Source: Candidatus Electrothrix aestuarii | GTDB lineage: Bacteria; Desulfobacterota; Desulfobulbia; Desulfobulbales; Desulfobulbaceae | Reading direction: 5' to 3' | Assembly (NCBI GenBank): GCA_032595685.2 | Contig: CP159373.1 | Span: forward strand, 827,001 to 891,000 | DNA length: 64,000 nt | Part shown: in pieces, positions 26,430 to 64,000 of the stretch | Numbering within the stretch: position 1 is the stretch's first letter | How the letters are laid out: each line of letters starts with the position of its first letter | Position numbers and translations under genes: made by a program | Notes under the pieces: model-generated | What the model was told of the DNA's origin: nothing | Seen by the model: the letters and a program-made list of their open reading frames with translations, nothing else | Databases searched by the model: none

Positions 26430-26512
26430 CGGAAAGCTGACAAAGCCACAGCCGTCGTGAGACGGTGTCGGAAAGCCACGGATCTCTGGGGAGGAGACCG
26501 CCGGGTTGCCAC
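26430..26512 (+). ncRNA. GEMM-I riboswitch (cyclic-di-GMP or cyclic GMP-AMP class)
   Basis: The core shows the three elements of the GEMM-I fold: hairpin CCGTC-GTGA-GACGG with a GNRA tetraloop, then GGAAAGCCACGG, then a second stem GGATCTC...GAGACC, and the closing CCGGGTTGCC. Known c-di-GMP members read ACGCAAAGCC at the junction, while Geobacter-type cGAMP members read GCGGAAAGCC. This one has GTCGGAAAGCC, closer to the latter. The ligand-deciding position on the 5' strand (G or A) cannot be fixed because the 5' strand AAAGCCACAGCC has an indel relative to both. It lies about 320 bp upstream of the PhnD-like gene on the same strand. No typical terminator stem follows directly. Confidence 0.7.
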
Positions 26513-26832
26513 CTTGTACATCTATCTGAACATGTCGAATACAATCTCAATATATAAGGATATATGCCCGTCCCAATATCTGGACAGAGGACGACTGACC
26601 CTTTCAGCTTGAATTTTTCCTCCCTCGCCCGTTCAAGCCGAACGAACACAAGGCGACCGTTGGCCTTACGGCTCAAACAAATGAAGATAATAACATATTT
26701 TTATTCTTTACTGGAAGGAACCCAGAGCTGACCTGAGGACTATGCTATCTTAAGCCAAAGAGAATAAGCCACCCTTCAGGTGGTAGCGCTCAAAGACGGA
26801 GTCATTTTCAGAAGAAAAAAAAGGAGGGAGTT
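26513..26832. other. Leader between riboswitch and the PhnD-like gene
   Basis: About 320 bp without a supported gene. It contains AAGGC/GCCTT and CCACC/GGTGG hairpins and ends in the strong site AAAGGAGGGAGTT before ATG 26833. It probably is the riboswitch expression platform and 5' UTR. Confidence 0.4.
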
Positions 26833-40886: not shown

Positions 40887-41548
40887 TTTGCGCTGTTATT
40901 TCATCACTCCGCACAGTCTCTGTTGTCATCGGAAGTATACGTATCCGCTTCAAAGACAGTTCCTACGGCTGAGCTCATAACAACATCTATTCTGAGAGTC
41001 CGGTTCTGATAACATGTTCCGCCCTTCGGCTCCGGCATTGCTGCCACTTTCCGATAGTTTTACCCTCAGATACGTCACCGCATCCTTATCGGCTATCGAT
41101 TTTACGCCTACTATGGCTTCATCTGAAAACCCTCTGTCCATAACAGAAACATTGCTGCTCCGCTTAGGGCACGGCTGTCGCAGTTACAAACGGCCCAGCA
41201 TACAGACGGCTCTTCACCGGGTAAGATCACGAGCTTTCATTGCCCACCCACCTCCTCTACTCTACGGAATACGGAAAGGATATCGGGCTTCGGCAGTCGA
41301 GGTTGCCTCGCCCTTGCCGTAAAGCCTACCAGAGGTTCGCACCGAGCTTGGGTGACAAGTTTGATTCAGGCTTCCTTCAGATCCGTCATTGGCTCACAGT
41401 TACCGGGTTATCCCTCCTCGGGCAGCTCCTGTGAGTTTCTTCAGGCACCCTTGGAGTCTGCGCTTACCTGCCATCATCTACATATTCCCTCCTTTCAGGG
41501 GTTATGGCTGGACTTCCACCAGCTAGTTCGTGACCATGCCGGTCACAC
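40455..41548 (-). mobile_element. Group II intron, 5' two-thirds only, inserted in a transposase gene
   Basis: On the minus strand the intron begins at 41548 with GTGTGACCGGC, the usual 5' end of bacterial group II introns. The conserved ACTAGCTGGTGGAAGTCCAG and a Shine-Dalgarno-like GAAAGGAGGG stretch follow. The ORF in domain IV starts at 40886 and breaks off near 40455. Domains V and VI and the 3' exon are missing, so splicing is not possible. Confidence 0.85.
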
Positions 41549-52267: not shown

Positions 52268-53338
52268 TCAAAGAAGCCCTAACAACATGTAGACCGGTAC
52301 GAGGTTCGTCGTATCTCTCGGTTCCAGAACTGCATCAATCCCAGCATCTTCTACACTGACAGTAGTAGCAGTGCTAAAATTTGATTGATTATCATACCAT
52401 TCGGTCATACCACTCCCGGTTCCGTCGCCTTCACTCTCATGGAATTGCACCTTCAGATTCATTCCAAATGGTAACCCTGTTACAGTATAGGCACCACCAC
52501 TATCTACAGCTGTTATTGTAAAGCCCAGAAGAACTGTAGAGTCTGTCGCGTCGAAAACCTTAACCAGAGCCCCCTCAATTCCTCCGTTCACATCACTGAC
52601 CTGCCCTGAGATTTCACCTCCCAATGTAAGCGCAGCATCTATACCAGTCGTTGTTCCTCCCGCAACAACAGACACGGACGTGGCAGATAACTGAATAAAC
52701 TCATCATCATACCATTCTGTTACATAACCTGTTCCATAGGCCCAAAAACGAATATCATAGTTCCCCCCAGGTAGACCTTGCAGGGTATAAGCACCTGTAG
52801 TGCTATCTACTGTAGCGTATGTTACCCAGTCTAAGGAATCCGCGACATATGCCTGGACATAGACTGGTGAAGAGGGGGAGCCGTCAGAAAAGGTAACAGT
52901 GCCTGTAATGGTAGCACCTGTGGCTAACTGCACAATACCCACATCAGCAGTCGGCGATGCCGCTGTTAAGGAGAGCTCCTGTGCTCCTGTAAAATCGGAG
53001 CTGTTATTGTACCACTCTTCAACGTGATTCGTTCCAGTGGTTACAAAACGTACCTTATAAGTTTGCTCAAGTGGCAATCCGTTAATTGTAAAAGTTCCAG
53101 CTTCATTTTCAGGAGTATTCGGATCATCCGAAGCAGTTGAAATTAGCCCTCCCACAGCATTGTATTCATCATCGATCAAATATGCCCCAACACGTATTCC
53201 TGCTAGGGGCTCACCTGAAGAATTCTGAACAACTCCTGAAATAGATCCTGTCGTTGCTACACTTTCTCCGACAAAAACAAGGCCAAAAACTAATAATAGT
53301 ATGAGCTGCCTCAAGCAATACGCCATTTTTTTTTTCAT
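52268..53338 (-). CDS. Secreted protein with four carboxypeptidase-regulatory-like (CnaB/SdrB-type) repeats
   Basis: The product is 356 residues, with a signal peptide (KKKMAYCLRQLILLLVFGLVFVGESVA). Repeats of about 80 residues begin TGSISGVVQNSSGEPLAGIR, ATITGTVTFSDGSPSSPVYV and GGEISGQVSDVNGGIEGALV and share Y-x(2)-F/W-x-ATGT or EWYDDEF-type edges, each with an E-W-Y-N/D-D/N motif. This is a surface or extracellular scaffold. The last residues (NLVPVYMLLGLL) form a short hydrophobic tail like the one in the protein at 53915. It is last in the cluster below the S26-type peptidase. Confidence 0.75.
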   Translation of the reverse strand: MKKKMAYCLRQLILLLVFGLVFVGESVATTGSISGVVQNSSGEPLAGIRVGAYLIDDEYNAVGGLISTASDDPNTPENEAGTFTINGLPLEQTYKVRFVTTGTNHVEEWYNNSSDFTGAQELSLTAASPTADVGIVQLATGATITGTVTFSDGSPSSPVYVQAYVADSLDWVTYATVDSTTGAYTLQGLPGGNYDIRFWAYGTGYVTEWYDDEFIQLSATSVSVVAGGTTTGIDAALTLGGEISGQVSDVNGGIEGALVKVFDATDSTVLLGFTITAVDSGGAYTVTGLPFGMNLKVQFHESEGDGTGSGMTEWYDNQSNFSTATTVSVEDAGIDAVLEPRDTTNLVPVYMLLGLL

Positions 53339-53429: not shown

Positions 53430-53918
53430 TTAGCCAAGAGGAGGGATAAACGAACAAAGAAGCTTTCTAAAAGGCGTTCTCTGCTGACGAAGAGCAAAAA
53501 ACACCAGCGTATACCAAACAAAAAAACGGGATCTTACGCGCTCTACAGGACACTGTAAATTAATATTTTTCTGTTCTCCCCGAACAATATGCCATACACA
53601 GCCTAAGACCTGATGAGCAGGAATGGCAGGATCAAAACGGGCACAGGAATCGCCCCTTGTCTGAAAAAAGAGAACATTATCTTTATAATAACGTCTATGC
53701 AAACGATGCAAAAGAGGATTTCCATGCTTATCACAGCACAGCAATATATCGCCAATTTTAATTTTTTTTCGAGTAATTGGCACTATCTCAACCAGCTCAT
53801 TTCCCTGCAACAAAGGCCTCATTGACCTTCCAGACACCCGAATACGTACTGACATTCCCTGCTCCAAAAGGAAACGTATACAATCAAGGGCGCCAGCTTC
53901 GCGAATACCGATTCTCAT
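53430..53918 (-). CDS. S24/S26-type (signal peptidase-like) peptidase
   Basis: The product is about 162 residues from ATG 53918; its start overlaps the upstream gene stop by 4 bp (53915-53918), so translation is coupled. The active-site serine lies in VSGRSMRPLLQGN (Ser32). The following strand is ELVEIVPITRKKIKIGDILL and the later LLHRLHRR carries histidines where ER/SipW-type signal peptidases use a Ser-His pair instead of Ser-Lys. A C-terminal hydrophobic stretch (FFVWYTLVFFALRQ) may anchor it. Placed within the radical SAM/PqqD cluster, it could trim the modified peptide or a secreted partner. Confidence 0.7.
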   Translation of the reverse strand: MRIGIREAGALDCIRFLLEQGMSVRIRVSGRSMRPLLQGNELVEIVPITRKKIKIGDILLCCDKHGNPLLHRLHRRYYKDNVLFFQTRGDSCARFDPAIPAHQVLGCVWHIVRGEQKNINLQCPVERVRSRFFVWYTLVFFALRQQRTPFRKLLCSFIPPLG

Positions 53919-54547
53919 GGAATTGGTCGCCCAATGATAGCAGGCATAAATAACAACCACTGGAATCCCGAGCTCACTTTGACATCATCAAGTTGCCACC
54001 ACCAAGGGGTAGAGGCTGTATAGCGAAAACGAATACGAACATCCGACTGTCCATCGACAAGAGAACTTATATCAATACTCGCAGCCTGAGGCCCCAAAAG
54101 ATCATTCGTATCCGCAGGTTGCCAATCCACAGTTGTCCAAACCCCTCCTCCACCAACCGACACCTGAACGAGAAAAACATTTTCAGTATCAACAGATTCA
54201 GTATAACCATCATAGCTAAAAGAAAGCTGGGTACCGTGCAATGTAGAGCAGTCTAAGGCGGGTGTATCAAGAGAGGTATCAACGGAGGAACTTTCGCAGG
54301 TATCATGGCTATTGGCAAAGGCAAAACAGCCTTCCCCGCCCGTTGTATTTTCCCTGTCACTGTCAAAAATCCACTCACAGCCATCACTATGATTGGTCAC
54401 AGTCCATCCATCAGGAGTTCCAGGACAAGAAGAAAAGGTTTCGCTCACAACAACAGTAGCAAAAGAATTCTCTACAAATAAAAGAAATAATAGCAGCTGA
54501 AAGATGTTCGTAATTATTTTCTTCCACATAGATTCAGGATTCTTCAT
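53915..54547 (-). CDS. Secreted jelly-roll (MAM/concanavalin-like) protein
   Basis: The product is 210 residues. A signal peptide (MWKKIITNIFQLLLFLLFVENSFA) leads to VVVSETFSSCPGTPDGWTVT, WIFDSDRENTTGGEGCFAFA, LSFSYDGYTESVDTENVFL and VRIRFRYTASTPWWWQLDDV. This is the beta-sandwich of exported peptidase-associated (MAM-like) domains. The C-terminus SSGFQWLLFMPAIIGRPIP is a short hydrophobic motif that could be a sorting signal. It is cotranscribed with the S26-type peptidase. Confidence 0.75.
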   Translation of the reverse strand: MKNPESMWKKIITNIFQLLLFLLFVENSFATVVVSETFSSCPGTPDGWTVTNHSDGCEWIFDSDRENTTGGEGCFAFANSHDTCESSSVDTSLDTPALDCSTLHGTQLSFSYDGYTESVDTENVFLVQVSVGGGGVWTTVDWQPADTNDLLGPQAASIDISSLVDGQSDVRIRFRYTASTPWWWQLDDVKVSSGFQWLLFMPAIIGRPIP

Positions 54548-54592
54548 TTTTCTATCACTCGCTTATTTCTGTACCTTTTGCTTTCCACTCGT

Positions 54593-55495
54593 TTACAGCT
54601 CTGCCGCTAGACGCTCCACAGCGTAAACTGCACTCTCATCAGGACGAAATGCAAGTTCATACATCGCCACATCTTGGGCTAATGTCTCACATATACTGAT
54701 CCCCTTATCAGCCCATTCCTGACCATACCAAGGAATAGAAGCCGTCTGCAATAACGACTTCAGTCCGATTGCTGGTTCCAGCTGGCATATCTTTGTTTCT
54801 AGAGACTGACGAAGAAAAACGAGTGCATCAAGAGGAGCAGAATTATTGGAGGCAATATCCCCCTCTCCCCTCCAAGGGGTCCCCCAGACATGCCACCTCT
54901 TTTCTTGCAAGCGAAGAATCAGACGTTCCTCACTGAACAAACGAATATGCGGATCTTGCAACAGAAGTTGACCCAAGGTGGATTTACCCGTGCCAGATGG
55001 TGCCGCAAAAACAATACCTTTCCCTTGAATTTTTCCGCCAGCGGCATGAATTATTATGCCCTGGTTATTAAGGACGGTATGCTTCAATAAAAACTGATTA
55101 AAGGCGAGCTCGTCTCTATCAACAACGGGCTTATGTGAGGAGGGAAAATTCTTTACATGAAGGCTACAGGAAAAACGGGAAAAATCAGGGTTTGCCAATA
55201 TAGTCCACAGGAGTTTTTCACGACAAATTGTTCCATAAATATCTTGCTGATAGCCTGAAGGGACACCATAAAAATCTGAACGACCAGCCGAAAACAGCCT
55301 TTCCCGAGCGACACAAGCACTGTTATCCACAAAAGGTGATATGGATATATCGACATGAGGTGTAGAATTAGCGGGCAAAACCTTACCAATAAAATTCTCC
55401 GATTTCACAGAAGAGCCTTCACCCTGAGAATGCTTAAAAGAGGACGAGACTCTAAGAGTGAGGCCGCCGACCGTACAAATTTCCTTACTCTGCAT
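54593..55495 (-). CDS. HPr-kinase-like protein of a radical-SAM peptide cluster
   Basis: The product is 300 residues. GIIIHAAGGKIQGKGIVFAA PSGTGKS contains a Walker A P-loop (166-172) preceded by HAAG, the HprK-like arrangement; RLFSEERLILRL and the GTPWRGEGDIASN stretch follow. HprK-like proteins in PqqD/radical SAM clusters, such as ScmC-type proteins, are thought to phosphorylate or chaperone a peptide. The family call rests on motifs. It follows the candidate precursor by 154 bp and precedes the secreted jelly-roll gene by 45 bp. Confidence 0.75.
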   Translation of the reverse strand: MQSKEICTVGGLTLRVSSSFKHSQGEGSSVKSENFIGKVLPANSTPHVDISISPFVDNSACVARERLFSAGRSDFYGVPSGYQQDIYGTICREKLLWTILANPDFSRFSCSLHVKNFPSSHKPVVDRDELAFNQFLLKHTVLNNQGIIIHAAGGKIQGKGIVFAAPSGTGKSTLGQLLLQDPHIRLFSEERLILRLQEKRWHVWGTPWRGEGDIASNNSAPLDALVFLRQSLETKICQLEPAIGLKSLLQTASIPWYGQEWADKGISICETLAQDVAMYELAFRPDESAVYAVERLAAEL

Positions 55496-55649
55496 TATGC
55501 ATGATTTTGACTGTCCAAATACGTCTTCTACTTAGGATTCACCAAACGCTGATTGGTCAAGTTGTTCATTACTGCTCAGTCTTCAGGCGCCCACTCCTAG
55601 CAAAGAGCTCCTAAAAAAATATTTACAGCTTCGCCTCAGCAATAAATAA

Positions 55650-55823
55650 TCACGAAAAACCAGTATCAGGAATAACACACGTTGATCCTTGAATAGGAGC
55701 ACTGCAACCTCCTAGCACTTGGTCTGCAAATAAAGTAACCTTCCCCATTATAGGTTTCTCATATATTTTCTTTGAATCGCGCATATACTGCTTAGACGAT
55801 TTCTTTTCTTTCTTTTCAGCCAT
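55650..55823 (-). CDS. Candidate ribosomal precursor peptide (57 aa)
   Basis: Below usual ORF cut-offs. The peptide starts MAEKKEKKSSKQYMRDSKKI (basic leader), then YEKPIMGKVTLFADQVLGGC (positions 21-40) and a 17-residue tail SAPIQGSTCVIPDTGFS. Leader-type KP...KVTLFADQVLGGC resembles leaders of PqqD-bound radical SAM substrates, and the GGC junction looks like a cleavage site. Cys40 and Cys49 could be modified. It lies between the radical SAM gene (60-bp gap) and the kinase gene; AAAAGGA precedes the ATG. That it is the substrate is inferred from position and design only. Confidence 0.65.
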   Translation of the reverse strand: MAEKKEKKSSKQYMRDSKKIYEKPIMGKVTLFADQVLGGCSAPIQGSTCVIPDTGFS

Positions 55824-55882
55824 TTCCTTATATCCTTTTCACTTATAATTACTTTGCAAAACGAGCTATTAGCCAAGTAACA

Positions 55883-57007
55883 TTAACGACACTTCGTGTA
55901 ATCACAATAAAAAGAAGGCACCTCTTCGAGGCAACCCGATTCAAGCAAAAAACTACTTGGACATCCTGTACATTTTTTTCTCTCTACACAACTCGTACAG
56001 ATAAAATTGCTCGTCACTCTTTGTTGGTCAATCTGCTCACTCAAGCTCTCCCAGCTACTGAGTAGCTTGTTATCTTTCTTTAAAAGATCAACAAATGGAT
56101 AAAGAGTAATTATACAAGGTTGCATCCTTCCATATGGTGTAATGTGAAAGGAGGATCTACCTGCTGCACACTTGTACAGTCTTGTTGTTTTTTTTAGCAA
56201 AGGCTTATGAAGAGATAATTGCCGTATCTTCTCTTTGAGAATCTTATCACCATGATCTATAGCTACAGCCTGCTGAGGGGAAATCCGAAAACGCAAGGTT
56301 TCCTGCAACCCTAACTTCTTTACCCCTTTTTTGCTATTAAGGGCTCCTCCATTATCATCATTTGGTAACGCTGGAAGTATTGCACAATCATGACGAAACC
56401 CCACACCCATTTTTTGAACAAGATTACGAATAGCTGGCATCTCCTGATAATTCAGACTCATAACCATCGTTTTCAAACGAAGGCGATTTTTACTCTGAAG
56501 AAGACGGGCAACACCGTTCATGCATGCTGCAAAAGATCCTTTTTGCTGGGTTATAGATTCAAAGGTTATTTCTGTTGCCCCATAGAGTGTGACTTCGATA
56601 ATCCGGGGGGGATATTTAATAAAGGAGTTAACTATCTCATCAGTTATAAGGCTACCATTACAATAAACAGAAACCAATAATCCACGGTGAACAGCATACT
56701 CATAAATTCTGACAAAGTCGGGGCGTAGCATAGGGTCCCCGCCTGTTAACGTCAGAAATAAGGTCCCGGCATCAACCAGTTCATCAAGCAAAGAGAGTAT
56801 TTTTTCTGTATCAAGCTCTTTACTGCGATGCTTATGAATAGCTTCCTGGTCCCCGAGATAACAGTGAACACAGCGAAAATTACAGCGATGCGTTAACTCT
56901 AAAGTAACTGTAAGGGGAATACCTCTTTGAGCTGCACGATTGAGAAAATGATCAATATCACTGGACGCTAGCCAGGAGCAACCATGTTGAATATCTTCTG
57001 CCATCAA
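55883..57007 (-). CDS. Radical SAM/SPASM peptide-modifying enzyme
   Basis: The product is 374 residues. The radical SAM cluster motif is THRCNFRCVHCYLGD (Cys42, Cys46, Cys49). LTLTGGDPMLRPDF (GGDP in the fold's GGEP position), LLVSVYCNGSLI and EVTLYGATEITFESIT follow. The C-terminal SPASM region is rich in cysteine (YKCAAGRSSFHITPYGRMQP C, SCVERKKCTGCPSS, FYCDYTKC) and would bind one or two extra 4Fe-4S clusters. Such enzymes form carbon-carbon or thioether bonds in ribosomal peptides. Its start overlaps the PqqD-like stop (57004-57007), so the two are coupled. Confidence 0.92.
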   Translation of the reverse strand: MMAEDIQHGCSWLASSDIDHFLNRAAQRGIPLTVTLELTHRCNFRCVHCYLGDQEAIHKHRSKELDTEKILSLLDELVDAGTLFLTLTGGDPMLRPDFVRIYEYAVHRGLLVSVYCNGSLITDEIVNSFIKYPPRIIEVTLYGATEITFESITQQKGSFAACMNGVARLLQSKNRLRLKTMVMSLNYQEMPAIRNLVQKMGVGFRHDCAILPALPNDDNGGALNSKKGVKKLGLQETLRFRISPQQAVAIDHGDKILKEKIRQLSLHKPLLKKTTRLYKCAAGRSSFHITPYGRMQPCIITLYPFVDLLKKDNKLLSSWESLSEQIDQQRVTSNFICTSCVERKKCTGCPSSFLLESGCLEEVPSFYCDYTKCR

Positions 57008-57300
57008 GTTTCAGCTACTATTAATCCGGCATCTGCAAAATCACGGACAATTTCGAGAAGGTCAGACTCAATGATTTCACTTGGAGCCTCATATTCTTCT
57101 TTCATCTGCTCATGTATTTCAGCGAGAGAGTTCTCACCATTCAATGCCTGCCAAATATAGCTACCTGCATCGTTCAGAGTATACAACTCATCCATTGAGG
57201 CTAAATCCCCAGAGATAGGCACCAGCAGGGTTTCCCCCATTACTGTCCGCGTGACAATATTTTCTGCTTGCCTCAACACACTGGTAAGCTGGATATCCAT
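57004..57300 (-). CDS. PqqD-like peptide chaperone
   Basis: The product is 98 residues. The layout VTRTVMGETLLVPISGD...LYTLNDAGSYIWQALNGENS then LAEIHEQMKEEYEAPSE and VRDFADAGLIV is the PqqD winged-helix fold with the N-terminal beta hairpin that binds leader peptides and hands them to radical SAM partners. It is first in the minus-strand operon that continues with the radical SAM, precursor and kinase genes. The gene for the giant surface protein upstream ends in its own terminator, so this operon probably has its own promoter. Confidence 0.88.
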   Translation of the reverse strand: MDIQLTSVLRQAENIVTRTVMGETLLVPISGDLASMDELYTLNDAGSYIWQALNGENSLAEIHEQMKEEYEAPSEIIESDLLEIVRDFADAGLIVAET

Positions 57301-57347: not shown

Positions 57348-57375
57348 GGGTGAAGAATCCTTGAATCCTTCACCC
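57348..57375 (-). terminator. Terminator of the giant SdrD/C25 gene
   Basis: Minus strand GGGTGAAG, 12-nt loop, CTTCACCC, followed by CATTATATTATTG. It lies 18 bp past the stop and separates the giant gene from the PqqD operon. Confidence 0.65.
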
Positions 57376-57392: not shown

Positions 57393-60300
57393 TTAATTCT
57401 GATGAGGTACCAACGTAGCTGGGTCCCCAAGAAGGTTATAGATATTCAACAGCTCCAAATGAACGCCCTGCTGGCCGTAGTGCTTCTTAGCCTGCTTGAC
57501 AGCATCACCAAGCCGTTGATTCCCTGGCTCAAATAAACTTGTGTAAAAGCCTTCTGCCATGACATCCGTCATATTGTTGAGTGATGTTCCGCTTGCGCCA
57601 AAAAAGCCCACAGCAGAACCACCAGCCTGCAGGACTGCCGCCTCACCAAGACTATCCATTGCCGGATAGCCATAGCTCGCTGCGGAGCAAGACATACTTA
57701 CCATCAGCATGGGTGCTCCCAACTCAATGTTTCCCAGCTCTGACGAGGCTAACAAAGCACTTGTCTTGCCAAGACCTACCATAGAACTATGCCCGATATA
57801 ATGCATAATTCCCGTTCCTTCCTGCAGGGCATTCACAATCTGAGTATGGGTCGTACTGATATCATCTGAAGAACTCACAGACAAACGCTTAACAGCTGTT
57901 TTACCAGCAACCAAGGCCTCGACCTTTTCTGCGCTGGCCTGGAAATCGCCTCCTCTATCAGAGCGATCATTAATCAGCGTAGTTGTCAAAGCTCCGCTAT
58001 TCTCAAATTGTTCGTAGGTTATCAGTTTATCAATATAGTTGTCAAGTTCGACTGTATTGACGGTCGGGATCCTTCCAAGAGCAAACTCAGGTATTCCATC
58101 ATTTCCAACAACATCTGCAAAAACATTGTCACTGGGGAAATAACCATCCTCTGTACGAACCTGGAGACTTGGTACCGTGGGATATCCATAGCCAAGGTAA
58201 TTTTTATAGTCATATGAACCATCGCCAATCAACACGACATAACGTGGAGCAACAGTCCAGTTTTCATACGCATAGGCAAGGAAATCGCGCAATACTTCTG
58301 GAGCAGCCAAACTTGCACTGAATTCATCCTGAATATCCTCAATATCCACCACCATTGGGGTCAGACCTTGCGTTGCCCGATAATCCGCAAGACGTTGTGC
58401 AGAATCGAGCAGATGTGATGAAGTGATGATCAGGTAATCTGCCTGATTGCCTGTATTGCGCAGGTCAGATGAACTATCAACAGTCAGAGTGCCAGAGACC
58501 GACTCACCCAGATTCTCGGTCAGAAAATAGGAGTGACCTGGCTCCGTCAGCACAGTAATCGTATAATCACCAGCTTCATCCTTGCCAGGAAGGGTCCTGA
58601 CTCGTTTCGGTGCGTTTGGATCTGTTATGTCAAGAACCAGTACATTACTCTTTGTCAATCCAGAGACAGTAATGGAATCATTCTGTTCGGCGTTGAAGAA
58701 CAGTTCTCCGTTGATAGCCTCGTAGCTCCGACCATAGTCTATCTCGAACGATTCAATATAAATAAAGGAGTAGGAAACACCGCTATTCAGCTGAGCAATA
58801 AGCTGGATTTCATTATCGCCATCCTGTAATTCCATCGCATCGACTTCAGCCTGGAAGCGATAATCACCTTTTTCAGACCATTCAGCCACCCCGATCTCAC
58901 TGCCGTTCAGCAGCACGCGAACACTGTACGGTGCCAACTCATCGGAGTTACCACTCATAATACCAACCAGATTCACGGTAACTGTTGCTTTCCCTAAGCC
59001 GGTAGCCCTTGGTGTTGCAACAGTATGTGTAAATGTATCTTTAGAACCAGGAGCATACAGATAATCCCAGGCCCAGAAATCACTCACAGGTTTATTGATA
59101 TACATCTGAAATGGATACTGATTTTCCTCAAACTGCTTATGGCTAACAAAAGACTGTGCATGATTTACACTCGTCTTTGCCCTTTTTGCGGTATTCTTCA
59201 CCTTTGCTCCAGGGGCACCCAATTGCAGTAAGTAGACATTCTGACCAATATCATTTCGTTCAGGGGCCTGACCATAAAACCAGAGTCCCGAGCCTGTATT
59301 GGCGGTAATCACCGGTATCGTCTCACCCGCTAAGGTGACCAGACACAGCTTAGCCTTCAGATACTGCGCTACCTGTGCCTCGGAAAAACCAGATGCTGTT
59401 GCTAACTCAGTAGCAGTTAAATATACTAAGCCCTTGTTGCTGACAGGTATCTTCAGAGTATTTCCAGTGACACTGGCCTGCACAGTTGCAAGCTGACGTA
59501 CGGCCTGATTTCGTGCGGCAAAGCGTCGCAACTGTTTTTTCGAGTAGGCCTTGTTTGCCAGTGAATACCCCTCAGGCCCATCATCTACTAATTGCTTCGC
59601 GGGAAGCAAAGTCTGAGCCTGTACAGTGTACGGACCAGAAACAGTGCCCTGAGCATTAGCAGCCACTTCAACAACGCGGTAGGTATAGTTCATACCAGGT
59701 GTTGCTGTCTTATCGACATAGCGATAAGTGCCTCCATGAGGCGGCATTAACAGGCCAGGAAGGATCTCTGTATTCACAGTTTGATACTGACCAGTCTGCT
59801 CGTTGAGTCGCTCCAGCATAAAACCAATGGTTCCGATTTCACTGGCGGTCTTCCACTCCAGCACAGTTTGATCTTTTCCATTAACGTAAGCCTTAAAGGA
59901 GCTCACTATTGCGTAGGTGGGGATAGGCTCTAAATATCCAAAATCCACATCAAGATATTCTGTAGAAACAGAGGGATCAGTTGTCAACTTATACAAGGGA
60001 TTATTATTAACAGAGTCAAAAGTTGTGCCAGGAGGAACACTCGCCTGTGTATAGATATCCAAGACTCCGTTTTCATCTGTTACCTCTACCGTATAGGTAC
60101 CTTGAGGTAAATCCGGGAAAAGGTAATTCCCGTCACTGTCCGTAACATCCACGGCAATAATTTTTCCGTCCGAGTCTTTCAGTGCAATGGTGACACCAGG
60201 TATTCCATTCTCTCCCTCATCCTGAATTCCATCTCCATCAGCGTCAATCCAGACAAGATCGCCAATGTCAGAAGTGCCAGTCTCTGGGAACTCATAGCCG

Positions 60301-63300
60301 AAATCGGCTGTCAATATTGTCTGACCCGCTGCAAGAGAAACCATTGTGCTGTTATCCTTTGTCGCATCAGGGTCACCGGTTTGTGTCGTACCACTTGGAG
60401 GATCAACAACCACGATTGTATAATCACCCGCACTGAGACCGGTAAAGCTATAGCTCCCATCAGGTGCTGTGGTTGTTGTCTCGCAAGTAGAAGAAGGTGT
60501 ACAAGTTCCATCCCGCAGTTCAATGGTAATGCCACCAATCCCCGACTCTCCCATATCCTGCACACCATCACCATCGGCATCATTCCAAATACGGTCACCG
60601 ATGGTGCCGGTGGTGAGTGGGGTCGTTGCGGTAGTATACCAGAAATCCGCATCAAGATGAACAGTACCTGGTTCCGTAATATTTATCGTGGTTTTCCCAT
60701 CTGCTGTGGTATCTGGATCATAGAGAATATTATATGTATCTGTATAGGTAGGCGGAAATTCTTTAACCACCACTGTATATTCACCCGTTCCGACACCGGT
60801 GAACAGATAATGACCGTCAGTATCGGTCACTGCGGTCGGACAGTCCACACCGGCATTGCAATATTTGTTCTGCAATTCCACAACCACGCCGACTACAGGC
60901 TCATCCGTCACACCGTCACCATCCGAATCAAGCAGAATAGTGTCGCCAATAGTACTGAGTGCCGCCAGATTAAAGAGATAATCCTCCACCTCACCGTCAT
61001 AGGCAATACCCTTAAAGGCTATTGTAGGAACAGGAGGTTTTTCTGGAAACAAACGGAACCGAGCATAGCCGGGCGCCTTAAAGTTACCATCTCCATCAAA
61101 CGCTGTCCCAGGTATATCAAATGGCACACATGACGTAAGCATAGACGTTCCATCATCGTTAGGCAGCACAACCTGCCCACCAATCACCTCGTAGGAAATA
61201 ATCATCTCTCCAGAACCACTCAGCGACCCGTCTCCATTAAAATCCAGCCAGCCGACTAACCAGCCGTCACCAACCGCCGTCACTTCAACAGCACCACCTG
61301 CTGAGCTCCAGGAATCCGTATTAGAGGTACTAGAAAGACAATCTGGATTAACGGGAACGATTCCGTCATCAATGTCAGCATTGGCATCAATAGAAGGCTT
61401 ACCATCTGCCTCAACAGTCACTGTGGAGCCAAGATACAAATTAGGTGTTACAACATGCCGAGCACCATCAATGTCCAAAGTTGTTTCAAAAGGTAAGGGC
61501 AAATCACCAAAATCAAACGAGGCTGTCAGCTCAAAGGCAAAGTCAAGCCCTGCCGTAGTGGTAGAGCTAGGACTGATACTCTGCCAGGTTGAAGTAGTAT
61601 ATCCGTCAGTGTCTGTATACTCTTTCAATGTTGTTGCAGGAGTATCAGCAAGATCTGTTGTTAAACTGAGAAGATCTGCCGGAGCCTCAAGAGAGACCAA
61701 ATAACTTTCATTACTTTCGCTGACTGAAGGCAGGCCGGTAAATGAATAATCACCGTTGGAATCCGTCACCGTCTGGGTTATCGGAACCAGCTCACCGGCA
61801 TCAACATTCCCGTCATTATTTGCATCCGTCCATTTGGACACATAGACCGTTGTGCCCGTATATGCAGTTTCCGTACTCGAATCAATACCGTTCGTCGCAT
61901 TCAAACCTGTACCGCAATACCCGTCTCCTCCGGTTGTTCCTTCGAGGCAGACTGTACCGCTGAGGTCATTGACCGGCGGGAATTTAAATCCCATATCGGC
62001 ATCATCAATAGGGTCTGAGCCAAGAGTTAGCTCAATACTGCTGTCCAAGGCTCCACTGTCGTGGCCGTTATAAGACGGGGTCAATGTACCGTATTCCGTC
62101 GGAAAATCATTAGAATCGACTGTTATGGTATAACTTCCACTGTTCAATACAATCTCATTACCGTTCAGATCCGTTGCTCCCTTGACAAAGTAATAATTGC
62201 CGTTCTCATCGGTCTCAACAATATAGGTATTTGTACCATCTGAGAGCGTGACCGTCACATTGGCCAGCGGCAAATCACCTTCTTCCATCGGGCTGCCGTC
62301 GCCGTCCATGTCAATAAAAAGCTGGTCGCCGATGAACAGAGGCGGTTCATAACCGAAATCCGCGCCCATGTAGCTGTTGCCGTTGACAGCCACACCATGC
62401 TGATTGTCGCAAATATCGCCAGCAGCGGGGCATACATCACCGTCCGCGTCAGGGTCAGCAGTTATCTGAGGATCACCCGGAATTGTGCCAACTTTAACAA
62501 CATAATTGCCATCTGGCAGGCCGGGGAATAAATAACTGCCATCTGTGCCGGTTGCAGTTGAAGCGTAAGGAGTTGCAGAAACTGGCTCGCCAATGTCCCA
62601 GCGGCCATCACCGTCAGTATCCGTGAAGGTGAACAGTTCAACCATCACATTTTCTATTCCCGGCTCATTGCTGCCCTGCGTACCGTCACCATTAACATCC
62701 CAATAGACAGAATCACCGATCGCGCCAGTGGGGGTGAAGCCGAAGTCGTTTCCTGTACTTGCCGTGGAGCCGGTAAGGGCTTGTTCAAAATACCGATATG
62801 TACCTGCATCCTCTCCGGTTGTCGGTGCATAAATATCACCGCCAAGCCCTTGAGGCAAATTCGTATCTGTTTCACTGACCGCCACCCGGTACGTACCGTT
62901 AGGCAGCTCACCGAAGTAATACGACCCCACCGGATCAGCAGTTCCGTCGCCGTCTACATCAACTGTACCGTCCGATGCCGTCTGACTGTCTACGTCAAGC
63001 CATGTTATTCCGTTGTCCGGAGTCCACTGCAAGGTCACTGTGACATCGCCAATGCCTGCTTCAGCACTGCTGTTCTTGGTTGTATCGCCATCAAGATCAG
63101 TCCAGACCAAGCCGCTGATAGAATTTTCTGCCTGCGGAGGCTGAAAGCCGAAATCAAGGTTATTGACATTACCGGAGGTAACATCGGCCTTGCCGTCGCT
63201 GTCGCATTGCGTGCCGACACATACGCCGCCGCCCGGAGCAACATCAGGATCTTCTATCTGCTGATACGTGGTTATCGGGGTGTCGTCGACCACGACGATG

Positions 63301-64000
63301 AAATTCTGCGAAGGCAGATTAGGGAAGGAATACGAACCGTCCGGATTAGTGGTCACGCTGGTGTACAGTGCATCCGTGCCCTCGTCAACCACGCCGTCGC
63401 CGTCTTCATCCTGATACAGATAGACCGTCAGACCTGCTACACCCAGCTCATTCGCGCTTTGAGTGCCGTCGCCATCCAGGTCGTAGTAGACCTTGCCGTC
63501 AATCTGACGACCCTCATTGGGAGCCTCATAGCCGAAGTCACGATCAACGAGAAATTGACCGTTATAGGCAGTGAAACGGATATACTCATCAGGTGTGTCA
63601 CTGCCGGGCGGGTTAACTTCTCCGTTTGCAGCTTCATAAACAGCCGTCCAGGAACCGGAAGACAAGGCCCCTGTAGCACCTGTGTCTCCTTCAGCAGGAA
63701 TATTGGTCAGCACATTAATTGCGTAGCATTGTCCATCGGTCAGTTCAGTGAACTGGTAAAAACCATCAGCATCAGTTACGACAGTTGCGGCTATTGAATC
63801 AGCACCTTGTCCGTTGCCTCCAAAGTCACAATCATTACCGAGATCAATAAGCTCTACTGTGATACCGCTCAGGTATTCACCGGATAGATCAGCAGAAAGA
63901 GAGCTGTTGATGTCTTCCCAGATATGCCCTGACACTGAGCCGGGCACACCTCCGTAGCCGAAATCTATATTGGAAGCATCATCGTAGGTTCCTGTCCCTC
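57393..64000 (-). CDS. Giant surface protein: SdrD B-type repeats, GEVED-like domain and gingipain-type (C25) peptidase (N-terminus beyond the right edge)
   Basis: At least 2200 residues; the frame is open through the window edge, so the N-terminus is missing. Counting from 63947, about nine Ca-binding SdrD B-like modules follow one another, with starts such as IDGKVYYDLDGDGTQSANEL, GDRIWNDADGDGVQDMGESG and GDLVWIDADGDGIQDEGENG. A GEVED-type DFGDLPLPFETTLDIDGARH domain is inserted between repeats 6 and 7. Near residue 1400 a fibronectin-like TASEIGTIGFMLERLNEQTG appears, and the last 330 residues form a C25 peptidase: VLIGDGSYDYKNYLGYGYPT, catalytic His in GIMHYIGHSSMVGLG and Cys in MVSMSCSAASYG (132 and 98 residues from the end). 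A secreted, calcium-stiffened protease. Confidence 0.85.
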   Translation of the reverse strand, partial: GTGTYDDASNIDFGYGGVPGSVSGHIWEDINSSLSADLSGEYLSGITVELIDLGNDCDFGGNGQGADSIAATVVTDADGFYQFTELTDGQCYAINVLTNIPAEGDTGATGALSSGSWTAVYEAANGEVNPPGSDTPDEYIRFTAYNGQFLVDRDFGYEAPNEGRQIDGKVYYDLDGDGTQSANELGVAGLTVYLYQDEDGDGVVDEGTDALYTSVTTNPDGSYSFPNLPSQNFIVVVDDTPITTYQQIEDPDVAPGGGVCVGTQCDSDGKADVTSGNVNNLDFGFQPPQAENSISGLVWTDLDGDTTKNSSAEAGIGDVTVTLQWTPDNGITWLDVDSQTASDGTVDVDGDGTADPVGSYYFGELPNGTYRVAVSETDTNLPQGLGGDIYAPTTGEDAGTYRYFEQALTGSTASTGNDFGFTPTGAIGDSVYWDVNGDGTQGSNEPGIENVMVELFTFTDTDGDGRWDIGEPVSATPYASTATGTDGSYLFPGLPDGNYVVKVGTIPGDPQITADPDADGDVCPAAGDICDNQHGVAVNGNSYMGADFGYEPPLFIGDQLFIDMDGDGSPMEEGDLPLANVTVTLSDGTNTYIVETDENGNYYFVKGATDLNGNEIVLNSGSYTITVDSNDFPTEYGTLTPSYNGHDSGALDSSIELTLGSDPIDDADMGFKFPPVNDLSGTVCLEGTTGGDGYCGTGLNATNGIDSSTETAYTGTTVYVSKWTDANNDGNVDAGELVPITQTVTDSNGDYSFTGLPSVSESNESYLVSLEAPADLLSLTTDLADTPATTLKEYTDTDGYTTSTWQSISPSSTTTAGLDFAFELTASFDFGDLPLPFETTLDIDGARHVVTPNLYLGSTVTVEADGKPSIDANADIDDGIVPVNPDCLSSTSNTDSWSSAGGAVEVTAVGDGWLVGWLDFNGDGSLSGSGEMIISYEVIGGQVVLPNDDGTSMLTSCVPFDIPGTAFDGDGNFKAPGYARFRLFPEKPPVPTIAFKGIAYDGEVEDYLFNLAALSTIGDTILLDSDGDGVTDEPVVGVVVELQNKYCNAGVDCPTAVTDTDGHYLFTGVGTGEYTVVVKEFPPTYTDTYNILYDPDTTADGKTTINITEPGTVHLDADFWYTTATTPLTTGTIGDRIWNDADGDGVQDMGESGIGGITIELRDGTCTPSSTCETTTTAPDGSYSFTGLSAGDYTIVVVDPPSGTTQTGDPDATKDNSTMVSLAAGQTILTADFGYEFPETGTSDIGDLVWIDADGDGIQDEGENGIPGVTIALKDSDGKIIAVDVTDSDGNYLFPDLPQGTYTVEVTDENGVLDIYTQASVPPGTTFDSVNNNPLYKLTTDPSVSTEYLDVDFGYLEPIPTYAIVSSFKAYVNGKDQTVLEWKTASEIGTIGFMLERLNEQTGQYQTVNTEILPGLLMPPHGGTYRYVDKTATPGMNYTYRVVEVAANAQGTVSGPYTVQAQTLLPAKQLVDDGPEGYSLANKAYSKKQLRRFAARNQAVRQLATVQASVTGNTLKIPVSNKGLVYLTATELATASGFSEAQVAQYLKAKLCLVTLAGETIPVITANTGSGLWFYGQAPERNDIGQNVYLLQLGAPGAKVKNTAKRAKTSVNHAQSFVSHKQFEENQYPFQMYINKPVSDFWAWDYLYAPGSKDTFTHTVATPRATGLGKATVTVNLVGIMSGNSDELAPYSVRVLLNGSEIGVAEWSEKGDYRFQAEVDAMELQDGDNEIQLIAQLNSGVSYSFIYIESFEIDYGRSYEAINGELFFNAEQNDSITVSGLTKSNVLVLDITDPNAPKRVRTLPGKDEAGDYTITVLTEPGHSYFLTENLGESVSGTLTVDSSSDLRNTGNQADYLIITSSHLLDSAQRLADYRATQGLTPMVVDIEDIQDEFSASLAAPEVLRDFLAYAYENWTVAPRYVVLIGDGSYDYKNYLGYGYPTVPSLQVRTEDGYFPSDNVFADVVGNDGIPEFALGRIPTVNTVELDNYIDKLITYEQFENSGALTTTLINDRSDRGGDFQASAEKVEALVAGKTAVKRLSVSSSDDISTTHTQIVNALQEGTGIMHYIGHSSMVGLGKTSALLASSELGNIELGAPMLMVSMSCSAASYGYPAMDSLGEAAVLQAGGSAVGFFGASGTSLNNMTDVMAEGFYTSLFEPGNQRLGDAVKQAKKHYGQQGVHLELLNIYNLLGDPATLVPHQN

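Follow-up and report, generated by a model that had tools for sequence, protein, structure and literature searches.

Lasso peptide gene clusters are characterised by an asparagine-synthetase-like macrocyclase (C) and a transglutaminase-like B2 protease, and the Tyr of their leader peptides lies at position −17 from the cut. According to the accessible part of PMC10368454, an HprK homologue in some of these clusters (ThcoK, SyanK, BsfK) phosphorylates a Ser of the precursor prior to leader removal, helped by a PqqD-like protein of the recognition element (RRE) type known from ribosomally synthesised and post-translationally modified peptides (RiPPs), and the leader bears a YxxP-type motif (YxxPxL in a section heading). 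In the same part of this source it is stated that the RRE protein accelerates BsfK, that the leaderless core is no substrate of this kinase and that all sites reported before BsfK were C-terminal Ser residues, the position mostly used in lasso systems. Here we describe a locus from the cable bacterium Candidatus Electrothrix aestuarii, situated in a stretch of 64,000 nucleotides (bases 827001–891000 of the single 5.11 Mb contig CP159373.1), which is referred to as the window. It encodes a PqqD-family protein, a radical S-adenosylmethionine (SAM)/SPASM enzyme, a 57-residue peptide and an HprK-like kinase. The locus is probably the biosynthetic cluster of a widespread RiPP-like peptide family for which no name was found, and whose members would be guided by the RRE protein, radically modified and phosphorylated at their last Ser.

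The PqqD-like protein, the YxxP leader motif and the HprK-related kinase are shared with the phosphorylated lasso clusters. In comparison to these, the locus has a radical SAM/SPASM enzyme, a Cys-containing core, an S26-type peptidase and, often, a C25 protein, whereas neither the lasso macrocyclase nor the B2 protease is found among the Pfam and NCBIfam matches listed for the eight window proteins between 52268 and 63947. The SynChlorMet cassette (ScmC, ScmD, ScmE and ScmF, known here from NCBIfam only) also combines HprK-like, PqqD-like and radical SAM/SPASM proteins, and ScmC is the best NCBIfam match of the window kinase (6e-9, followed by HprK_rel_A with 7.5e-7, both under cut-off). The window proteins, however, reach 35.6 of 125 bits for ScmC, 22.8 of 100 for ScmD and 64.6 and 66.9 of 400 for ScmE and ScmF, and a single radical SAM gene stands against two in the cassette. 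Membership was rejected, as these equivalog models remain below cut-off for the window and, in four other loci, for both the radical SAM enzyme and the kinase. Sactipeptide and ranthipeptide systems (AlbA, SkfB, PapB), whose products are characterised by a thioether between a Cys and an alpha or side-chain carbon, have in common with the locus a SPASM radical SAM enzyme paired with a Cys-containing precursor, but the NCBIfam models of AlbA and PapB give only 72 of 850 and 61 of 340 bits, below cut-off, and the window locus has in addition a kinase gene and a C-terminal Ser. The GeoRSP system of NCBIfam shares the pairing of a PqqD-family chaperone with a radical SAM/SPASM protein and differs in that its models stay below cut-off for the window (15.5 of 100 and 66.3 of 400 bits). 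No named peptide family was found to fit. A description of the gene set was not found in the literature searched, most subscription journals lying outside this search; this includes the accessible parts of PMC4289311 and PMC10885120. The main text of the cable-bacteria paper PMC11976967, as far as accessible, has no mention of PqqD, C25, carboxypeptidase, SPASM or peptidase, and the accessible main text of a second one, PMC13047784, has none of PqqD, C25, carboxypeptidase, radical, RiPP or surface protein.

A gene-encoded precursor with conserved leader and variable core is kept beside modifying enzymes, as is characteristic of RiPP clusters. Across 41 aligned peptides Y21, P24, L31 and C40 (window numbering) are invariant and C49 is nearly so. 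The distance from the Tyr to the first Cys amounts to 20–22 residues, ends included, in all 43 rows counted (the doubtful L124 and L128 were left out; loci of our surveys are cited by L numbers), with a search pattern that permitted 16–23. The stretch after this Cys varies in sequence and comprises 13–30 residues, Lys directly following the Cys in 27 of the 43 rows. Position and pattern are retained at 21–46% identity to the window peptide. Of 45 distinct peptide rows, L124 and L128 included, 44 end in Ser, and the count becomes 56 of 57 with twelve later peptides (one each from L077, L078 and L106, two from L050 and seven from the peptide-first search described below). In comparison, Ser is the last residue in 13 of 159 other genes of 37 of these loci. 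All six Ser codons are used for the last residue (44 locus rows), and therefore the residue, not the DNA, is kept.

The initial annotation had regarded the peptide as the substrate of its neighbours; the type of the adjacent enzymes and the conserved position and pattern support its assignment as the putative precursor. A loss of the FADQVLGGC region in orthologues, which had been named as grounds for abandoning this assignment, was not seen, since close relatives retain the region as LxADxVL..C and distant ones have a looser version of it. Of the GGC junction, only the Cys is conserved. A lipoprotein signal (LGGC) was rejected, as the residues before the Cys vary and no hydrophobic stretch was seen ahead of it. 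Pfam and NCBIfam searches with 41 of the 45 peptides (all but L080, L092, L124 and L128) gave scattered matches only and none that names the peptide convincingly, the best being DARPP-32 (two members, 1.8e-4). A lasso-like spacing would place V, T or I and then L or M before the cut (27 V, 8 T and 2 I; 34 L and 6 M among the 43 rows), and by analogy we suggest that the V/T-L pair 16–17 residues from the Tyr might mark the cut site, which in the window peptide would lie behind L37.

For the window kinase no Pfam family lies above cut-off. Its AlphaFold model (predicted local distance difference test, pLDDT, 90.7) matches PEPCK first (1.8e-6) and HPr kinase/phosphatase with 2.6e-5, both with modest TM-scores. 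H150, S167, G170, K171 and T173 are invariant in 29 aligned kinase rows, the His and the P-loop Lys being present in all of them. The accessible part of PMC10368454 gives H148-G163-G166-G168-K169-S170-D186-D187 as residues of BsfK. The acid pair is Asp-Asp in 18 of the 29 kinases, Glu-Glu in six (window, L052, L053, L055, L056 and L064) and mixed in five; Asp-Asp is also the pair of the kinases of L061 (Desulfobacteraceae) and L063 (CSSED10-310). In detail, Glu-Glu was seen in six (window, L052, L053, L055, L056 and L064) and mixed in five. Initially it had been proposed that the kinase phosphorylates the peptide; the analogy to the lasso kinases, as covered by the same part of PMC10368454, gives this proposal a specific candidate target in the near-invariant C-terminal Ser.

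Among the close loci, which comprise the window and L034–L042 (n = 10, all cable bacteria), the C25 gene, PqqD, radical SAM enzyme, at least one peptide and HprK occur in 10 of 10. The S26-type gene was found in nine of them, the contig of the tenth, L040, ending first; a CarboxypepD_reg protein occurs in eight, and two peptides are encoded in four. In L037/L054 of the genus Electronema two peptides were observed together with two HprK genes, the first peptide ending in Ala. Matches to the peptide profile were obtained in seven of eight genomes of the window's genus (completeness of the eighth, 69%) and in three Electronema genomes, 15 of 140 relatives overall; in an even draw of 395 genomes from the phylum, seven match, the window's own included. 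The window's genus therefore has the system almost universally, while in the rest of the phylum it is sporadic. In one Electronema genome (G034) no match to the radical SAM enzyme was obtained at 1e-20.

The enzyme alignment was scanned against one genome per species (84,980 species), and the best 80 of 169 confirmed relatives were kept. A peptide was found by profile in 36 of these 80 loci; among the 36, HprK lies within 5 kb in 33 and PqqD within 3 kb in 33, and 26 have an S26-type gene on one or the other strand within 9 kb. A same-strand C25 gene within 9 kb accompanies 29 of the 36 peptide loci and none of the 44 without profile peptide (Fisher p 1.6e-15, relatedness not corrected); one of the latter, L114, has a weak C25 match on the other strand. 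In a quick maximum-likelihood tree of the enzyme one clade of 38 rows (SH-aLRT 97) contains all 30 rows with peptide and C25, window included. Every row of this clade has a peptide, counting L077 (relaxed search) and L078 (motif), whereas outside of it L106 has a peptide by motif and L128 a doubtful one. The record labels in the clade, into which nearly all of the 36 peptide loci fall, are Thermodesulfobacteriota, Chloroflexota, Kiritimatiellota, Lentisphaerota, Verrucomicrobiota, CSSED10-310, Planctomycetota, Acidobacteriota, Aminicenantes, Myxococcota and Elusimicrobiota; the relatives are scattered over about ten other phyla. Contigs of metagenome-assembled genomes may be chimeric, which limits the locus counts. 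The core of the locus consists of PqqD, the radical SAM/SPASM enzyme, a peptide of 50–66 residues and the HprK-like kinase; in many loci an S26-type Ser-His peptidase comes next. L093, L108 and L118 (Verrucomicrobiota, Kiritimatiellota and Lentisphaerota records) form a deep branch within the enzyme clade, with a peptide of the type GDEVLAGSCKD...C...C..GS; L093 and L118 have two extra genes between C25 and PqqD, and the C25 protein of L108 bears carbohydrate-binding modules.

Because the 80 loci had been found through the enzyme, the peptide profile alone was also run against the 395 phylum genomes, which gave seven new places in six genomes. Radical SAM enzyme and HprK are beside the peptide in 7 of 7, the former within about 0.7 kb and the latter within about 2 kb (in one place PqqD and the radical SAM gene separate it from the peptide). 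An S26-type gene is present in five and PqqD, as called, in four. The peptide is therefore part of the system, and C25 is a common but not obligatory partner. Some of the open reading frames (ORFs) are short: 214 residues for the radical SAM enzyme of L188, 233 for that of L189, and a short kinase ORF with a weak match (1.3e-7) in L188, while the radical SAM enzyme of L190 runs off the contig. L188 and L189 belong to one genome and may be decayed or misassembled copies. Two Ser-ending peptides were also seen in L050 (near 1813 and 2342), a more distant locus in another family of the order, which has PqqD/radical SAM/HprK/S26 content and no C25 match. In genome G007 a second locus with this content was noted (L048/L050 observation).

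In the proposed pathway the PqqD protein would first bind the YxxP leader, as lasso practice and the narrow spacing suggest. The radical SAM/SPASM enzyme would then act on the core with its Cys, the most likely modification being a thioether or another crosslink from a conserved Cys, and the HprK-like kinase would phosphorylate the C-terminal Ser with the leader still attached, which is the best supported of these steps. The S26-type Ser-His peptidase, or another one, might subsequently remove the leader, perhaps after the V/T-L pair, and the product may act with exported surface proteins, often the large C25 peptidase, as processing enzyme, target or display partner. Phosphorylation of the C-terminal Ser appears to be the most economical reading, because an RRE-type protein, a YxxP leader and HprK are shared with the lasso clusters and because the Ser is kept while the core drifts. 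Confidence decreases from there to the radical SAM step, then to trimming and finally to the role of C25. Gene content, gene order, conservation and residue patterns are directly visible in the sequences.

Several observations weigh against a phosphorylated RiPP. The main caution concerns the acid pair of the window kinase, which is Glu-Glu instead of the Asp-Asp of BsfK and of 18 of the 29 aligned kinases, and Asp-Asp occurs in no cable-bacteria kinase row; moreover, the target of BsfK is an internal Ser (accessible part of PMC10368454). HprK was not found in the DNA available for L070 and L082, even at relaxed thresholds, though their peptides end in GS. The only non-Ser end among the 57 peptides is Ala, in one copy of a two-copy locus. 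The peptides of L077 (relaxed search, E 0.03), L124 and L128 are weak calls, and those of L078 and L106 were chosen by position and pattern from 17 motif-bearing small ORFs, the other 15 of which were judged to be chance. No exporter was recognised among the eight window proteins scanned, the wider neighbours being unsurveyed. With regard to the C25 partner, it was found in only two of the seven peptide-first places in the stretch read, two of the five remaining ones (L190 and L193) being near contig ends, and SdrD_B repeats occur in 10 of the 27 Pfam-tested C25 proteins, the repeats being varied.

Only tentatively do we go further and propose an undescribed RiPP class, spread over some ten further phyla, of radically crosslinked peptides with a phosphate on an obligatory C-terminal Ser, in many cases produced alongside a large exported C25 protease. 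Such a class would combine radical SAM/SPASM chemistry with the phosphorylation of a precursor Ser by an HprK-type kinase, each of them a RiPP logic of its own, and the phosphorylation site would be predicted from sequence alone. It would also yield a rule for genome mining: YxxP, 20–22 residues to a Cys, Ser as last residue and HprK beside it. For cable bacteria this would mean a conserved surface-linked system, for which the recurrence of the C25 protein points to a function in the envelope; being near-universal there, it could help the filaments to build or guard their envelope.

The giant C25 protein is encoded by a 3400-codon frame. At its N-terminus, beyond the window edge, a hydrophobic signal was recognised by eye. 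SdrD_B / CarboxypepD_reg repeats are followed by a C-terminal C25 (gingipain-like) cysteine peptidase domain, in which HYIGHSS and VSMSCS, corresponding to the catalytic His and Cys of this family, were seen in translation; the pattern of the His motif is present in 20 of 28 relatives. The number of C25 loci rests on our own profile and was checked by Pfam in 27 of 29 (all but L054 and L056), Peptidase_C25 being above cut-off in every one of the 27. Repeats in other C25 proteins are DUF11-like, CBM_6, GEVED, CshA or Lamin Tail, or none were seen, some proteins being cut by contig ends. Several proteins from Verrucomicrobiota, Kiritimatiellota and Lentisphaerota records extend more than 100 residues beyond the C25 domain. 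The C25 gene adjoins PqqD in each of the ten close loci, the window among them. Of the 29 C25 loci, 21 have the end of this gene at most 400 bases from PqqD, with overlaps of 4 bases in L052 and 1 base in L072, whereas it is on the other strand in L092 and after the kinase in L074. This proximity, and a constant C25 domain next to variable repeats, would fit a modified peptide that serves as inhibitor, activator or pro-peptide of the adjoining protease, i.e. a protease with its own RiPP regulator. We consider this unlikely, as five of the seven peptide-first places are without C25 in the stretch read, and no signal peptide is evident in the peptide, in contrast to the exported C25 protein. The hairpin that parts the two genes in the window also speaks against it, as differing expression of the two is possible.

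PqqD and the radical SAM/SPASM enzyme are of the peptide-maturation type, in agreement with the first assignment. The lasso and PQQ PqqD models of NCBIfam match the window PqqD below cut-off only. In 13 aligned radical SAM sequences, window included, the CX3CX2C motif (C42xxxC46xxC49) and C280, C298, C337, C340, C346, C349 and C368 are invariant, and the radical SAM/SPASM signature of CX3CX2C and SPASM cysteines is present. Among the best 25 NCBIfam matches listed for the window enzyme, and likewise for four of its distant relatives, no model reaches its cut-off. Matches of the enzyme to viperin in PADLOC were taken as superfamily-level and four other proteins gave no match, so that a role in anti-phage defence was rejected. 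The combination of PqqD with a SPASM enzyme is also the pairing of PQQ biosynthesis, among solved relatives the enzyme comes nearest to PqqE and SkfB, and the system is present in seven of eight genomes of the window's genus. The peptide could accordingly be the precursor of a small redox or metal cofactor like PQQ or mycofactocin instead of a peptide product, which we regard as rather improbable: a cofactor precursor is expected to keep its donor residues, whereas the region after the Cys varies in both sequence and length, and neither the C-terminal Ser nor the kinase has a place in such a scheme.

Returning to the phosphorylated RiPP, its exported partners had been foreseen in part: the jelly-roll and repeat proteins are present, but the commonest partner, the upstream C25 protein, had been missed. 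The jelly-roll protein had been counted as a defining part, yet its profile matches only three of the 80 loci, all from the window's genus, and it occurs in six of the ten cable-bacteria loci; it is a cable-bacteria accessory. The exported proteins of the window and L034–L042 tend to end in an FNWLLFLPAI-like or LIPVYMLL-like hydrophobic tail. Surface-protein sorting, with C25 acting like a PorU sortase and the peptide or its phosphate as a tag joined to the exported jelly-roll and CarboxypepD_reg proteins, is very improbable: the NCBIfam PorU model does match the C25 part, though below cut-off (196 of 420 bits), and the jelly-roll and some CarboxypepD_reg proteins do have a common FNWLLFLPAI-like tail, but the DNA pattern of this tail, which omits the window's own FMP variant, gave four genome matches against four for the reversed control and no convincing gene, and was rejected as a genome-wide sorting tail, and a CarboxypepD_reg protein near 2.79 Mb (G000:C1:2790000) ends in LVPILQLLLL with no PqqD match nearby.

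All members of the gene set named at the outset are present on the minus strand, in the order C25 protein, PqqD, radical SAM/SPASM enzyme, 57-residue peptide, HprK-like kinase, choice-of-anchor J protein, S26-type peptidase and CarboxypepD_reg protein (Table 1). The gene run is longer than initially annotated, as the upstream 3400-codon frame and the CarboxypepD_reg protein (52268–53338) recur in relatives. Two 4-bp overlaps had been described. The S26-type gene most likely starts at ATG 53918, giving an ATGA overlap with the jelly-roll stop. The second one, between radical SAM enzyme and PqqD, hinges on the choice of start: it exists with TTG 57007 and disappears with ATG 57004, which encodes M2, conserved in the alignment.

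Table 1. Features of the locus, in window coordinates
Feature	Position	Strand	Evidence
C-terminal part of giant exported C25 protein; runs off window edge	57393..64000	-	Pfam SdrD_B 2.8e-92, Peptidase_C25 (PF01364) 8.9e-71
12-bp-stem hairpin, possible attenuator or terminator	57348..57375	-	z -1.95; consensus match only
PqqD-family protein (RRE type), 98 aa	57004..57300	-	Pfam PF05402 4e-15
Radical SAM/SPASM enzyme, 374 aa (373 if start is ATG 57004)	55883..57007	-	PF04055 6e-20
Putative precursor peptide, 57 aa; Y21xxP24 ... L31FADQVL37, then C40, C49, C-terminal S57	55650..55823	-	alignments; peptide-only search
HprK-like kinase, 300 aa	54593..55495	-	invariant residues in 29 rows; structure model
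Exported choice-of-anchor J (jelly-roll) protein, 210 aa, tail FQWLLFMPAIIG; accessory	53915..54547	-	NCBIfam NF038128 46.4 bits (cut-off 30)
S26/S24-type serine peptidase, Ser32-His71, 162 aa	53430..53918	-	invariant residues in 20 rows; structure model
Exported CarboxypepD_reg-repeat protein, 356 aa, tail LVPVYMLLGLL; accessory	52268..53338	-	PF13620 7.4e-15

For the AlphaFold model of the S26-type protein (pLDDT 91.5) a single match lies below 0.001, to a chain of the human signal peptidase complex (7.7e-4); the C-terminal domain of the lambda repressor and SpsB are matched as well. S32, M33, H71, R72, G89 and D90 are invariant in 20 of 20 aligned rows, and the Ser-Met-x-Pro and His-Arg boxes (Pro in at least 90% of rows) together with the signal-peptidase fold characterise it as an S26 Ser-His peptidase. 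The NCBIfam signal peptidase I model TIGR02228 matches below cut-off. In a hydropathy scan of its relatives no scan window exceeded 2.0 apart from one fused ORF, and therefore no strong membrane anchor was seen.

In a sister group, twelve loci (L085, L086, L088, L091, L095, L101, L102, L107, L112, L116, L126 and L129) encode a fusion of 625–720 residues, in which a radical SAM part at the N-terminus is joined to an HprK-like kinase at the C-terminus, and most of them are near PqqD, S26-type and further radical SAM genes. Two stem from archaeal records, L095 (Methanothrix) and L129 (Methanomicrobiales). An assignment of the sister loci to SynChlorMet was rejected, since L112 and L129, the two that were tested, encode proteins far under the NCBIfam cut-offs. 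Elsewhere in the window, Rfam matches were obtained for a D1-D4 part of a group II intron (41226–41399, minus strand) and a c-di-GMP-I riboswitch (26435–26513, plus strand).

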